From Cycloclasticus sp. (GTDB lineage: Bacteria; Pseudomonadota; Gammaproteobacteria; Methylococcales; Cycloclasticaceae), in contig DUCS01000013.1 in NCBI GenBank assembly GCA_012959695.1, forward strand, positions 1 to 35,623: a DNA stretch of 35,623 bases, written 5' to 3'. The notes under the pieces are model-generated. The model worked only from the letters and a program-made list of their open reading frames with translations. It was not told the DNA's origin and did not search any database. Position numbers and translations under genes: made by a program. How positions within the stretch are numbered: the first letter of the stretch is position 1; each line of letters opens with the position of its first letter. Below, one piece after another: positions 4,318 to 9,614 of this stretch.

Positions 4318-4318
<1 letters not shown>

Positions 4319-5991
4319 TGCAACGACACCTATCCCTTGTGCTGATTTGCACACTACTTTTTGGTTGTGCTAACAACACCATAAAACCAAACGGCCATGC
4401 CATTGCCAGTGCTCACCCGGCGGCAACGCAAGCTGGGTTAACTATTCTTAATAAAGGCGGTAACGCGTTTGATGCGGCTATAGCCGTTAGCGCTGCTTTG
4501 GCGGTTGTTGAACCAAGGGGTTCTGGGCTTGGTGGCGGTGGGTTTTGGTTATTACATGAGGCAAAAACAAAGCGGCAAGTGATGATTGATGGGCGAGAGG
4601 TTGCCCCTAAGGCCGCGCATAAAGATATGTTTCTTGATGAGTTCGGTACACCGATTAGAAACGCATCCGTTAATGGCGTCTTGTCGGCGGGTATTCCGGG
4701 TGTGCCAGCTGGCTTGGTTCACTTATCAGAAAATTATGGTGTGTTGCCCTTATCAACTAGTTTGCAACCTGCTATATCGTTGGCTGAACAAGGTTTTAGG
4801 GTCAACGGGGATTATCACCGCACAGCGACGGTTAGGCAAAATGTGTTGGCAGCTAACAAATCAGCCCGCGATATTTTTCTAATTGATGGGAAAGCACCCG
4901 CGATCGGTAGCGTAATAAAACAAGCCGATTTAGCGAATACATTAAGGTTGATAGCGGCACATGGGTTTGATGGCTTTTACCGAGGCGAACTAGCTAAAAA
5001 ACTGGTTAATGGGGTGAGAGAAAATGGCGGCATTTGGACTGAGCAAGACCTAGCAACTTATACGATTAAGGAGCGAAAGCCAGTTGTCATCAACTACAAC
5101 GGTATGAAGATTACCAGTGCTGTATTGCCGTCGTCGGGTGGTTTGGTATTATCGATTGCGTTAAATATTCTTGAGCAATATGACTTGTCAACGATGAATG
5201 AGGCAACGCGTGCTCACGTTATTGTTGAAGCGATGAGAAGAGCCTATCGAGACAGAGCTTTATACATGGGTGATACTGACTTTGTTGAAGTGCCTATTAA
5301 TATGATGATGCAGAAGTCTTACGCGATAAATAAGATGGCTGACTTTCACTTAGACAAGGCAACAGCCAGCGAGAGCTTAACAGGTTTGAATGCAACAGAA
5401 GCTCGTGACACCACGCATTTCTCAGTGATCGATAATGAGGGTAACCGTGTTGCTGCAACGCTGTCTGTTAATTATCCATTTGGTTCTTGTTATGTGCCGC
5501 CAGGTACCGGTGTTTTGCTGAATGATGAAATGGATGACTTTTCTAAAAAACCGGGTGTGCCCAATATTTACGGCTTGGTTGGTGGCGCAGCAAATGCCAT
5601 ACAGCCCGGAAAGCGAATGTTATCCAGTATGTCCCCCACGTTTATAGAAACGGATGATATTGTGGGCATACTCGGCACCCCAGGTGGCAGTCGCATTATT
5701 AGTATGGTGCTACTGGCTATATTAGACGCTGAAAGTGGGAATGGCCCCACATCATGGGTATCACTGCCTCGTTTCCACCATCAATACTTGCCCGATGAAA
5801 TTCAATACGAGCCCAATGCATTAACCGATGATGCCGTCTTAGCGTTAAAACAAAAAGGCCATCACTTGAAGCGCTTAAAGCGGGGGTATGGAAATATGCA
5901 TGCTGTGATGTGGGATAAAAAGTCTAACCGCATTCAAGCAGCAAGTGACCCTAGGCTTTTTGGTCAAGCTAAGGTGGAAAATAAGCCGTAG
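4318..5991 (+). CDS. ggt: Gamma-glutamyltransferase, lipoprotein form
   Basis: A 557-residue Ntn-hydrolase of the gamma-glutamyltranspeptidase family, close to full family length. The N-terminus is a lipoprotein signal with lipobox LFGC (C17). The family motif PRGSGLGGGGF follows at about 60-70. The autoprocessing/catalytic threonine is the first T of TTHFSV (T365), followed by the small-subunit core (NEGNRVAATLSVN) and the oxyanion motif GTPGGSRI. The enzyme hydrolyses or transfers the gamma-glutamyl group of glutathione and related peptides. The signal places it in the periplasm, anchored to a membrane. The start overlaps the ferredoxin stop (TAATG). The next gene encodes a phytochelatin-synthase-like lipoprotein, another glutathione-acting fold. 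Confidence 0.93.
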
Positions 5992-6032: not shown

Positions 6033-6842
6033 ATGCTTATGTTTAGAAGTTTTTTCATAATAACGATTATCGCCCTCACAGGCTGCGCAACGCATACCGT
6101 TTCTTCCCAGCAGCAGGTCATTTCTTGGACTACGCCCGAGGGGGTTCAACGACTTTCTTCATCAAAGCACAACGTTGACTTTTTTAAATTAGCGAACCAC
6201 TTCGAAAGCCAATCAAATAAACTTTTTTGTGGGCCAACGTCGGCCACCATCGTTTTAAACGCATTACGATTACGTCAGTCACCAGTTGAGTTACCCAAAG
6301 GGTTAGCGTTACTGAGTCAGCAAGATTTAGCGTACTTGCCTAAAAGGGAGGGTTGGTCACCTTATTACAAACGATATACACAAGATAATATTTTGGACCT
6401 AAGCCCAAAACCCAGAGCCGTTATTTTAGGTCAGCCCATTGGGGAAAAAGAAGGTAAGCCAATTAAAGACTACGGTATCCAACTGCATCAACTAGCAATG
6501 ATATTTAAGGCACACCGGTTGAAAGTGGACATGCACGTCGTAAGCAATAATGCAGATCAAAAGAGTTTAAAACAAATAATGGTCGCCAGTTTAGAAAATG
6601 CCAAGGATTACTTAGTCGTTAACTATCAACGTGCGGTTCTTAAGCAACTTAAAGGTGGGCATATTTCCCCCATTGGTGCATACCACGAACTAAGCGATTC
6701 TTTTTTAATTTTGGATACGGCGCCTAATAAAGCCGACTGGGTTTGGGTGAAAGCAGATGTGTTAATTAAGGCAATGCAAACGTACGATACGATAGAAAAT
6801 CGAGGTTTTTTAATCGTTAGTGAGCAGGAAAAACTGCATTGA
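6033..6842 (+). CDS. Phytochelatin-synthase-like cysteine peptidase, lipoprotein
   Basis: A 269-residue protein with a lipoprotein signal (lipobox LTGC, C18). It has the phytochelatin synthase fold signature: FCGPTSATIVLNAL with nucleophile C66, GGHISPIGAY with H210, and ILDTAP with D228, giving the papain-like Cys-His-Asp triad. Bacterial and cyanobacterial single-domain relatives mostly remove glycine from glutathione and make little phytochelatin. It lacks the Cys-rich C-terminal domain of plant enzymes. It sits 41 bp after ggt, so the pair may process glutathione or thiol-metal conjugates outside the cytoplasm. An in-frame ATG at 6039 is an alternative start. Confidence 0.85.
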   Translation: MLMFRSFFIITIIALTGCATHTVSSQQQVISWTTPEGVQRLSSSKHNVDFFKLANHFESQSNKLFCGPTSATIVLNALRLRQSPVELPKGLALLSQQDLAYLPKREGWSPYYKRYTQDNILDLSPKPRAVILGQPIGEKEGKPIKDYGIQLHQLAMIFKAHRLKVDMHVVSNNADQKSLKQIMVASLENAKDYLVVNYQRAVLKQLKGGHISPIGAYHELSDSFLILDTAPNKADWVWVKADVLIKAMQTYDTIENRGFLIVSEQEKLH

Positions 6843-7325: not shown

Positions 7326-7739
7326 TTAGCAAACCCCTGATAATTCGCATAACCCATCTAGCACTAATTGAACAGGACTAACCACGCCGATAATTTTGCC
7401 GTTTTCCATAACAGGGGCTCGCATTAGACCGTATCTTGCGAATAAGCGTGAGCAGTAACGGATGTCCATATCGGGTGAGACTGAAATAAGCGGCTTTTCG
7501 TTTATTTCATATACGTTTACACGGTCAGGTGCCTTGTCTTTTGCTAAGACTTGCTTTGCGATGGTGCCGGCATTTATAACACCGTACTCATCATCGTCGT
7601 GAAATTTTTCGACGAATAACACAGATGTTTTATGCCGCTTCATTTCTCGAACGGCTTCGGTCACATTCATTCGTCCGTCAATAATATGAAATTCTGTTTT
7701 CATTACGTCACGTACGCGGATTGTTTTTTTATCACTCAT
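7326..7739 (-). CDS. CBS-domain-pair protein
   Basis: A 137-residue protein made almost entirely of two CBS motifs. The first covers about residues 8-65 (VRDVMKTEFHIIDGRMNV, then SVLFVEK), and the second about 75-132 (ISVSPDMDIRYCSRLF, then RAPVMENGKIIGVVSPVQLV). Paired CBS domains usually bind adenine nucleotides and regulate an attached or partner protein. This one is free-standing. Its start overlaps the stop of the PII-like gene by 4 bp, and it is the last gene of the DUF1538-DUF1538-PII-like-CBS set. It is therefore a likely nucleotide-sensing accessory of that membrane system. The ligand is not predictable here. Confidence 0.85.
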   Translation of the reverse strand: MSDKKTIRVRDVMKTEFHIIDGRMNVTEAVREMKRHKTSVLFVEKFHDDDEYGVINAGTIAKQVLAKDKAPDRVNVYEINEKPLISVSPDMDIRYCSRLFARYGLMRAPVMENGKIIGVVSPVQLVLDGLCELSGVC

Positions 7740-8086
7740 AATTCTTCCTCAATAATTTGTGTTATTTCTTTGGCTTGGTGCAGTACGCCAATGGCGTCTT
7801 CTACGTCAATTTGAAGGGCGATGCCGCTACCGGGTTCTTCGTCAAACCGTCCCGCTCGAGCTACTTCTTCGATTATTTTTCGGCTTAAATGTTGTTCGAC
7901 TAAAAAGAGAATCACGTCTCGTTGGGCGTCTAAGTTCAGCCCCATAAACGTTTTCTTTTTTTCTATCCCTTCGCCACGCGCGTTGTTGATAATCGTTGCG
8001 CCTGTGGCGCCAATGTTTCTAGCGGCCTCAAGAACCGTGTCGGTTTTGTTGACATCAACAAATACTAAAATAAGTTTGAAATGCAT
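7736..8086 (-). CDS. PII-like regulatory protein
   Basis: A 116-residue protein with the ferredoxin-like pattern of PII (GlnB/GlnK) proteins: beta strand KLILVFVDV, helix TVLEAARNIGATGATIINNARGEG (as in the PII beta1-alpha1-beta2 region leading to the T-loop), then a second beta-alpha-beta (RDVILFLVEQHLSRKIIEEVARAG) and a C-terminal strand and helix. It lacks the canonical T-loop Tyr context of GlnB, so it belongs among the divergent PII-like proteins. Members of this superfamily commonly sit next to a membrane transporter and gate it in response to nucleotides. Here it is 2 bp from a DUF1538 membrane gene and overlaps the CBS gene, which supports that role by inference. Confidence 0.75.
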   Translation of the reverse strand: MHFKLILVFVDVNKTDTVLEAARNIGATGATIINNARGEGIEKKKTFMGLNLDAQRDVILFLVEQHLSRKIIEEVARAGRFDEEPGSGIALQIDVEDAIGVLHQAKEITQIIEEEL

Positions 8087-8088
8087 AA

Positions 8089-8883
8089 TTAATCTCCTTC
8101 TTCGGGGCGTTTAAGTTGTGCCCTGCGCGTTAACCACTCAGTTATTTGAGCGTATGCAAGCACGGCTATTATAGGGAATAGACTGGCAAAGGCAATTAGC
8201 CCAAAGCCGTCCAGTAATGGGTTTCTACCGGGTATCGCGGTGGCTAAACCAATACCCAAGGCGGTGACCAATGGAACGGTCACGGTAGACGTTGTTACGC
8301 CACCGGAGTCGTAGGCTAAACCAATAATCATTTTTGGTGCAAACATAGTTTGGATGATGACGATAACGTAGCCAGCAATGATGTAGAGGTATAATTCGGT
8401 ACCGCTAACGATGCGATAAGTGCCTAGAGCAATACCCACGGAAACGCCTATGGATACGGCAAGCCGTAGATACCAAGCTTTAATATTACCGGCGGATATA
8501 GTTTGTGCTTTTATGGCGACGGCTATTAGTGCTGGTTCGGCCAAGGTGGTTGCAAAACCGATACAGGCTCCAAATATATACACCCAAGTATAGTCTTGCC
8601 AAGCGATAGAGATTGATTGGTCGGTCGTAGGGTTAATAAAGCTTTTACTGGTGAGTTGTTCAGCCATAAGTGTTCCGAGCGGGAATAGTGCTTTATCTAA
8701 GCCGACCAAAAAAAAGGTAATACCCAAAATGACGTACACCATGCCAACCATTAAATTCTTAAGCTGGGCAAATTGACGTTTGATAACGAACAACTGAAAA
8801 AATACGATGATAATCAGAATAGGCGCAACGTCTTTAATGGTGGACAGCAAGACACTGAAAATTTCGGTGATCCAGCTCATCAT
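8089..8883 (-). CDS. DUF1538 family integral membrane protein (second copy)
   Basis: A 264-residue hydrophobic protein with about six to seven predicted membrane segments. It carries the two conserved DUF1538 motifs: a [12 protein letters not shown] stretch near residue 120 and [19 protein letters not shown] near residue 190, followed by [16 protein letters not shown]. The same motifs recur in the adjacent gene at 8880-9614, so the two are paralogues. In other genomes both units are often fused in one polypeptide. The conserved Glu/Asp and Gly/Ser/Thr motifs inside membrane segments suggest a transporter or channel of unknown substrate. The start overlaps the upstream copy by 4 bp, and the PII-like gene starts 2 bp after the stop. 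Confidence 0.85.
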
Positions 8884-9614
8884 ATAACCATCCCATACGC
8901 CATAACGAAAATCATCGGCGTGAGCGAGGCGAAAGCGATAAGACCAAAGCCATCGGTTAATGGATTGCGTCCTTGAATAGCAGAGGCAAGCCCAACACCT
9001 AGGGCTGTGACTAGCGGTACGGTAATGGTGGAAGTGGTTACGCCGCCTGAGTCATAGGCAATGCCGATAATGGCATCGGGTGCGAAGAACGTCATAATCA
9101 CCACGCCAATGTAGCCTGGGATAATGAGGTAATGCAGTGGCCAGCCGCGAATAATTCGTAGCACCCCAAGTAGAATCGCAAAGCCCACGGAGGCGGCAAC
9201 GGTAAAGCGTAACCCAGTGGCATAACTAATTTTGGCTTGTTCTGATGCTTGTATCATGCCACCGTCTGCAGCGATTCTTGCAGCTTCATTGGCAACGGCA
9301 ATTAACGCAGGTTCTGCCGCGGTGGTGCCAAAACCCAGTGAAAACGCGAAGGCGAGTAACCATGGAACGCTACCCTTTTTAGCAAAAGCATATGCCATGT
9401 TTTCGCCAATAGGAAAGAGGCTTTTTTCAAGCCCTTGAATAAACAAGGTTAAGCCCAATACAACAAAAATTGTGCCGATGGCAATATCTGCAACGTTAGG
9501 AATAGGTTGTTTAAGAACGAAGAGTTGAAAAATAAAAATAACAACAAAGATAGGCAGTAAATCTAAAATACTGCCGATTATTTGTTTTAAAAATTTATTT
9601 TTAACGTGAAACAA
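8880..9614 (-). CDS. DUF1538 family integral membrane protein (first copy)
   Basis: A 244-residue membrane protein, first gene of the module. The start is a TTG on the complement of 9612-9614, preceded at good spacing by AGGGAGAG (complement of about 9620-9627), which decides the start. It has the same motif pair as its neighbour: [16 protein letters not shown] and [19 protein letters not shown], then [16 protein letters not shown]. Between the motifs it has a longer soluble loop ([17 protein letters not shown]) than the second copy. Function is unknown for the family. The two halves probably assemble as a pseudo-symmetric dimer in the inner membrane. Confidence 0.85.

Follow-up and report, generated by a model that had tools for sequence, protein, structure and literature searches.

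A candidate PII-gated cation/proton antiporter module built around paired DUF1538 proteins in Cycloclasticus and other bacteria

Introduction

Four minus-strand genes at positions 7,326-9,614 of a Cycloclasticus sp. contig encode two DUF1538 membrane proteins followed by a PII-like protein and a free-standing pair of CBS domains. The contig was analysed over its whole length of 35,623 nt, referred to here as the window. What does such a membrane pair transport, and why should two soluble proteins of sensor type be encoded with it? The initial annotation proposed a nucleotide-gated ion or metabolite channel whose substrate was unknown. Both terms need to be corrected, as a DUF1538 pair, UmpA and UmpB of Halomonas zhaodongensis, was published in 2017 as a heterodimer which, when co-expressed, carries out pH-dependent Na+(Li+,K+)/H+ antiport (PMC5484666).

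The same paper reports co-immunoprecipitation of UmpA with UmpB and shows that the two proteins alone confer antiport in one heterologous host, E. coli; the PII-like and CBS proteins are therefore not needed for the basic activity. The cloned Halomonas fragment consisted of a truncated ORF1 and ORF2-4, with UmpA as ORF3 and UmpB as ORF4, and neither 'P-II' nor 'CBS' occurs in the text of the paper (0 matches). Elsewhere, DUF1538 is among the 20 weightiest Pfam families in a model of growth pH, beside cation-transport families (PMC13255231), and UmpAB homologs have been named among the likely salt adaptations of cable bacteria. No printed link between DUF1538 and PII or CBS proteins was found in open-licence full texts. 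The antiporter family and the type of regulator are known, and their combination is new as far as the literature found extends. We consider it fairly probable that the operon encodes a UmpAB-type DUF1538 cation/proton antiporter together with dedicated soluble regulators, with a PII-like trimer gating the transporter.

Gene order and identity of the products

The genes are transcribed in the order UmpA-like (8,880-9,614, minus strand, 244 aa), UmpB-like (8,089-8,883, minus strand, 264 aa), PII-like (7,736-8,086, minus strand, 116 aa) and CBS pair (7,326-7,739, minus strand, 137 aa). The UmpA-like ORF has a TTG start with GGGAGAG upstream. The compact arrangement described in the initial annotation was recovered, with a 4-nt overlap at the UmpA/UmpB junction, a 2-nt gap between UmpB and PII and another 4-nt overlap between PII and CBS.

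Pfam matches also bore out the proposed make-up for all four proteins. DUF1538 was matched by the UmpA-like (E 1.6e-70, 237 bits) and the UmpB-like protein (E 7.2e-69, 232 bits), both against a curated cut-off of 22.6 bits; P-II was matched by the 116-aa protein (E 1.2e-8, 35.7 bits, cut-off 25) and CBS by two stretches of the 137-aa protein (E 2.2e-15). The two DUF1538 proteins of the window are about 48% identical (tblastn), and AEPALIAVA and the second, 11-letter motif said to be shared by them are present in both. Their best NCBIfam matches are UmpA and then UmpB of the Na,Li,K/H+ antiporter, in the right order. As neither reaches its equivalog cut-off (366 against 490 bits for UmpA, 311 against 500 bits for UmpB), the pair was assigned to the DUF1538 family and not to the UmpAB equivalog. 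In common with Halomonas UmpAB as described, there are two overlapping homologous DUF1538 genes with seven predicted transmembrane (TM) segments each and a hydrophilic UmpB C-terminus; the difference is that the Halomonas fragment comprised ORF1-4 only, with no PII-like or CBS gene named in the text of the paper.

The sensors probably accompany the characterised UmpAB branch too. The NCBIfam UmpB model, which judging by its name stands for the Halomonas type, was scored on 369 genomes of the class; its top locus is in G592 (470 bits, cut-off 500), where the gene order is UmpA, UmpB, PII-like, CBS.

The NCBIfam models themselves (NF041627 and NF041628, 243 and 252 positions) have cut-offs of 490 and 500 bits that are very hard to reach. 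Nothing in those 369 genomes passed the NF041628 cut-off, and NF041627 is passed by a fusion (L012) whose two halves together add up to 507 bits. Under such strict cut-offs, annotation may leave many homologs without a name.

Recurrence of the four-gene module

The initial annotation expected the four genes to occur together in other genomes. Three samples of loci were chosen by their DUF1538 genes. Sample 1, the best 80 of 581 loci confirmed in a contig profile search with 12 UmpA-type rows, covers the nearest part of the DUF1538 family and is nearly all gammaproteobacterial by record title. Samples 2 and 3 were drawn from the matches listed in 299 genomes of the phylum, at least 116 of which have DUF1538; sample 2 (L003-L031) took the best-scoring of these matches and sample 3 (L166-L205) forty further regions, and divergent DUF1538 types are under-represented in both. 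The counts leave out the window (L001-L002), loci chosen by PII (L112-L119), hand-picked loci (L120-L165) and L206 onward. A block was assessable when it had both DUF1538 halves and room downstream, and a gene was counted as next when it lay within 400 nt. Room was too short for PII in 4, 0 and 1 blocks of samples 1, 2 and 3 and for CBS in 0, 5 and 1, and two sampled loci had only half a DUF1538 block.

A PII-like gene lies directly downstream of DUF1538 in 138 of the 142 assessable blocks (74/74 among the best 80 of 581 loci, 28/29 and 36/39 in samples 1, 2 and 3), and CBS comes next after PII in 116 of 132 (73/74, again among the best 80 of 581 loci, then 20/23 and 23/35). No CBS was detected after PII in 15 of the 132, a point against our reading. 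The blocks without an adjacent PII-like gene are L030 (G121), where only 697 nt of downstream sequence is available, L198 (G093), L200 (G084) and L203 (G116). All four genomes have a strong PII-like match elsewhere, and in G084 and G116 a PII-CBS pair is found on another contig (L136, L137).

Across the 299 genomes, 110 have both DUF1538 and the PII-like gene, 6 DUF1538 only, 7 the PII-like gene only and 176 neither, with a PII-like profile cut of E <= 1e-9 that was chosen post hoc to fall between the module type and canonical PII. Two of the DUF1538-only genomes do show a PII-like match of lesser strength, at 2.5e-9 in G272 and 6e-7 in G281, and two PII-like-only genomes (G256, G259) are borderline at about 1e-10. 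The corresponding Fisher p of 9e-65 is not a true probability, because the genomes share ancestry and DUF1538-adjacent PII genes were the source of the profile. The expected co-occurrence is thus seen both in gene neighbourhoods and at the level of whole genomes.

ORFs of at least 90 aa lying within 4 kb were compared by blastp (E 1e-8) over the 74 loci with UmpA and CBS. Any further gene family recurred in 16 of these loci at most, so the conserved unit consists of UmpA, UmpB, PII-like and CBS.

A gamma-glutamyltranspeptidase gene (4,318-5,991, plus strand, Pfam 2.8e-156) and, downstream on the same strand, a bacterial phytochelatin synthase gene (6,033-6,842, Pfam 3.8e-42) are also present in the window and form a glutathione or metal-related pair.

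Riboswitches for Na+, Li+ or c-di-AMP were sought with Rfam at the gathering threshold. None was detected in 11 gammaproteobacterial loci and the window, and 17 diverse loci gave one tRNA and no riboswitch. A riboswitch link to the module therefore has no support from the scans of these loci and the window.

Architecture variants and plasmids

A second architecture was seen in nine hand-picked loci, which have a DUF1538 fusion of roughly 570-600 aa with two PII-like frames after it and no CBS gene. The first PII-like frame of L156 matches Pfam P-II (2.8e-10), while of three second frames given to Pfam one had a weak match below the cut-off (0.00019) and two had none. L153-L155 carry a fused DUF1538 gene with PII and CBS.

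PII adjoins DUF1538 in 9 of 9 plasmid records with a DUF1538 match. Six clostridial plasmids (H3-H6, H8, H9) encode a fused DUF1538 and, by our own profiles, a tandem PII-PII protein, two of which were given to Pfam and matched P-II in the C-terminal half only. Three alphaproteobacterial plasmids (H1, H2, H7) have two DUF1538 genes, one PII gene and no CBS. L211 (H4) and L210 (H2) were assigned from annotation alone, and the two-domain state of H4 was taken from its near twin H3. In the six clostridial plasmids the second PII domain occupies the place of CBS.

The pairing is kept through splitting, fusion and domain change, which counts for the PII-like protein as a dedicated partner of DUF1538. 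The recurrence across Gammaproteobacteria, with a modified form in Alphaproteobacteria and Clostridia, places the arrangement beyond chance. It is an even call whether this is a widespread and so far undescribed class of PII-gated cation/proton antiporters, in which an antiparallel UmpA-UmpB pair with a fold absent from the PDB would be joined by a non-canonical PII-like trimer and a further sensor, which in many Proteobacteria would be CBS and in Clostridia a second PII domain.

One locus (L138:2,496-6,687) carries two back-to-back modules on one strand, in the order fused DUF1538, PII, CBS, PII, UmpA, UmpB.

Topology and fold of the membrane pair

The UmpA-UmpB membrane pair is ANTIPARALLEL, and from the sequences its subunits should sit antiparallel. 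Seven TM segments are predicted in each, with the N-terminus of the UmpA-like protein inside and its C-terminus outside, and with the N-terminus of the UmpB-like protein outside and its C-terminus, which has a basic tail, inside. Lysines and arginines were counted in the loops of 80 UmpA and 76 UmpB proteins (the best 80 of 581 loci plus the window), with loop borders taken from the helices of the UmpA AlphaFold2 model and alternate loops compared. The excess of K+R falls in the N-terminus, L23, L45 and L67 in 80/80 UmpA proteins and in L12, L34, L56 and the C-terminus in 75/76 UmpB proteins; by net charge the inversion is seen in 80/80 and 76/76. The K+R contrasts between UmpA and UmpB are strongest at the N-terminus (2.15/0.17), L12 (0.42/2.87) and the C-terminus (0.12/4.11).

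By the positive-inside rule, these inverted charges place UmpA N-in/C-out and UmpB N-out/C-in, hence antiparallel. With the UmpA C-terminus and the UmpB N-terminus outside, the linker of natural fusions should be outside as well, and in the 23 fused rows analysed, to which two genomes contribute twice, the linkers have 0-2 K/R against 2-7 D/E. Against the antiparallel reading, however, the charge alternation is not clear in UmpB loops L34 and L67, and the C-tail has no K or R in 8 of the 23 fused rows. The words 'topology', 'inverted' and 'antiparallel' do not occur in PMC5484666 (0 matches), and the loop-charge inversion between UmpA and UmpB is new here. It agrees with the split, pseudo-symmetric transporter proposed in the initial annotation.

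The AlphaFold2 model of UmpA (mean pLDDT 88.7, pTM 0.81) had no PDB match at E <= 0.001 in Foldseek (best 0.69, TM 0.16), and a sequence search for solved relatives of DUF1538 gave none at a useful E-value. A new fold for DUF1538 is provisional, since the model was built for one subunit alone from 62 aligned rows that mix UmpA and UmpB. D18, E101, R136, R153, D188, R216 and D221 are conserved in both subunits; E101 (in AEP) and D188 (in DSGGVTTST) coincide with breaks in the modelled helices.

To our knowledge, transporters with a PII partner carry ammonium or bicarbonate. This would fit another explanation, in which the true substrate is a different one (e.g. bicarbonate or an organic anion) taken up under the control of the PII-like protein, much as SbtB controls SbtA, and the antiport measured in E. 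coli is secondary. Comparison of the UmpA model with the PDB gave no match from which a substrate could be named, and the unrelated UPF0118, RDD, MFS and CDF families have likewise been reported as Na+/H+ antiporters, UPF0118 having been found with the same E. coli KNabc selection. Even so, we regard another substrate as unlikely given the pH-dependent exchange of Na+, Li+ and K+ and the co-immunoprecipitation (PMC5484666) and the fact that the model of growth pH lists DUF1538 together with families for cation transport (PMC13255231), all of which speak for the antiporter.

The PII-like protein

AlphaFold2 gave the PII-like protein a PII fold (pLDDT 80.5, pTM 0.68), and PII and GlnK were the best Foldseek matches of this model (E 6.6e-7), with CPII at rank 15. 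The model is of low confidence in the T-loop, with a pLDDT of 58-69 over residues 31-50. This genome also encodes two canonical PII proteins, to which the PII-like profile is only weakly similar (hhalign probability 20.6%, E 0.0011). Aligned with them, the PII-like protein retains T31 and two GxG motifs, one following strand 2 and one in the B-loop, has a shorter T-loop and lacks Q39, Y51, K90, R101 and R103. We take these five to be the 2-oxoglutarate, triphosphate and uridylylation residues of canonical PII, so that the protein shares with canonical PII the fold and the Pfam P-II match and not these sites. The partner encoded next door is DUF1538 and not SbtA, which sets it apart from SbtB, and the 116 residues include no Cys and hence no CGPxGC loop.

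Among 144 distinct PII-like sequences of the module, T46 is present in 97%, F47 in 99%, G49 in 100% and L50 in 96%. TFxGL is thus a near-invariant hydrophobic T-loop motif of these proteins, and together with the fold it upholds the assignment of a PII-superfamily partner.

Nucleotide binding, which the initial annotation expected of this protein, is not assured since K90, R101 and R103 are missing. It is possible, though we would put it below an even chance, that the antiporter is gated as we propose by a non-nucleotide ligand or a cyclic dinucleotide instead of AMP, ADP, ATP or cAMP, a reading compatible with the others. The loss of the canonical phosphate ligands and the reported binding of c-di-AMP by the PII-like protein PstA favour it. 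The protein does, however, retain T31, G38, G40, G86 and G88. These align with what we presume to be the adenine side of the canonical PII site, which argues for an adenine nucleotide.

PII-like copies away from DUF1538 were also observed (L120-L135, L150-L151), a few of them in genomes without a DUF1538 match. By eye, their neighbours include genes for an ETF-ubiquinone oxidoreductase-type flavoprotein, glutamate-cysteine ligase and MutS, as well as DUS and response-regulator genes. Loss of the T-loop motif away from the transporter was not borne out, as 14 orphan copies of the same type keep much of it (G49 100%, T46 and F48 85% each, L50 71%, F47 42%). The motif is therefore not tied to a DUF1538 neighbourhood; most of the 14 orphans are in genomes with DUF1538 elsewhere, so this comparison does not discriminate.

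Such copies could mean that the PII-like and CBS proteins act on other targets without touching the transporter, and that co-transcription only reflects shared conditions. The flavoprotein oxidoreductase, glutamate-cysteine ligase and MutS neighbours, a PII-like copy in G022, a genome without DUF1538, and the 4 of 142 blocks that have no adjacent PII-like gene all point this way. We nevertheless hold it to be improbable, because the overlapping genes, and an adjacency that is almost always kept however different the architecture, agree with a complex, and PII acting on transporters is a known mode (PMC8352866).

The CBS protein

The nearest solved sequence to the CBS protein is CBS-CP12 (PDB 5nmu, E 4.1e-18), from which it differs in having no CP12 part and in the replacement of the Asp of both CBS motifs. 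The window protein has two CBS motifs, with T59 and Q124 at the two ribose-Asp positions. One Asp per motif presumably makes the ribose contact in adenine-nucleotide binding.

The CBS pair proposed as a nucleotide sensor is present, then, but its sensing of nucleotides is doubtful in the window, as both ribose Asp are replaced. Over 73 CBS rows and the window, the Asp is found in motif 1 in 67/74, in motif 2 in 31/74 and in both in 31. Only 7 of the 74 have neither: the window together with L055 and L032-L036, a set whose record titles are mostly Cycloclasticus. As the loss is confined to the window and its six nearest relatives, it belongs to this lineage, in which CBS may be a structural or differently tuned partner.

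Proposed mechanism

The proposal builds on the gene order, its conservation, the PII fold and the loop-charge inversion, and on the antiport reported for a family member (PMC5484666). UmpA and UmpB would be homologous halves inserted in opposite directions to make one inverted-repeat transporter, with E101 and D188 as the likely ion/proton site. The PII-like trimer would dock at the cytosolic face, probably through the hydrophobic TFxGL T-loop, and would throttle or release the exchange according to the ligand bound in the cleft between its subunits, an adenine nucleotide or something similar. The CBS protein would be a second, lineage-specific input, which in this genome may act without nucleotide binding.

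Docking, ligand and direction of control are modelled on SbtB acting on SbtA and GlnK on AmtB. In SbtA-SbtB, a hydrophobic T-loop inserts in the transporter cleft with AMP bound, and in AmtB-GlnK the PII T-loop is inserted into the transporter (PMC8352866, and cited therein for AmtB-GlnK). The likeness to SbtA-SbtB lies in a transporter gene beside a PII-like gene, in inverted repeats and in the hydrophobic T-loop by which SbtB makes contact. In contrast, SbtA carries bicarbonate and is a single chain made up of two 5-TM repeats, whereas here two genes of another family are involved, the PII-like protein is without the CGPxGC loop present in some SbtB, and a CBS protein is added. The difference from AmtB-GlnK is that Q39, Y51, K90, R101 and R103 of canonical PII are missing here.

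Transport of ammonium and of bicarbonate is known to be under PII control. If a Na+/H+ antiporter also had a PII-type partner, direct contact would link salt and pH homeostasis to metabolic signals, so that, if the proposal is true, pH and sodium homeostasis are tied directly to metabolic state. A role would also follow for genes annotated only as 'P-II family nitrogen regulator'.

Occurrence of the module

Two scans of viral contigs for a virus- or phage-borne module gave no relative. Six records labelled phage (H10-H15) have DUF1538-like frames, and these may be bacterial contigs filed as phage. By record title, the module is found in marine, methane-oxidising and sulfur-oxidising Gammaproteobacteria, and it is also present on the clostridial plasmids, two of which are from human samples.
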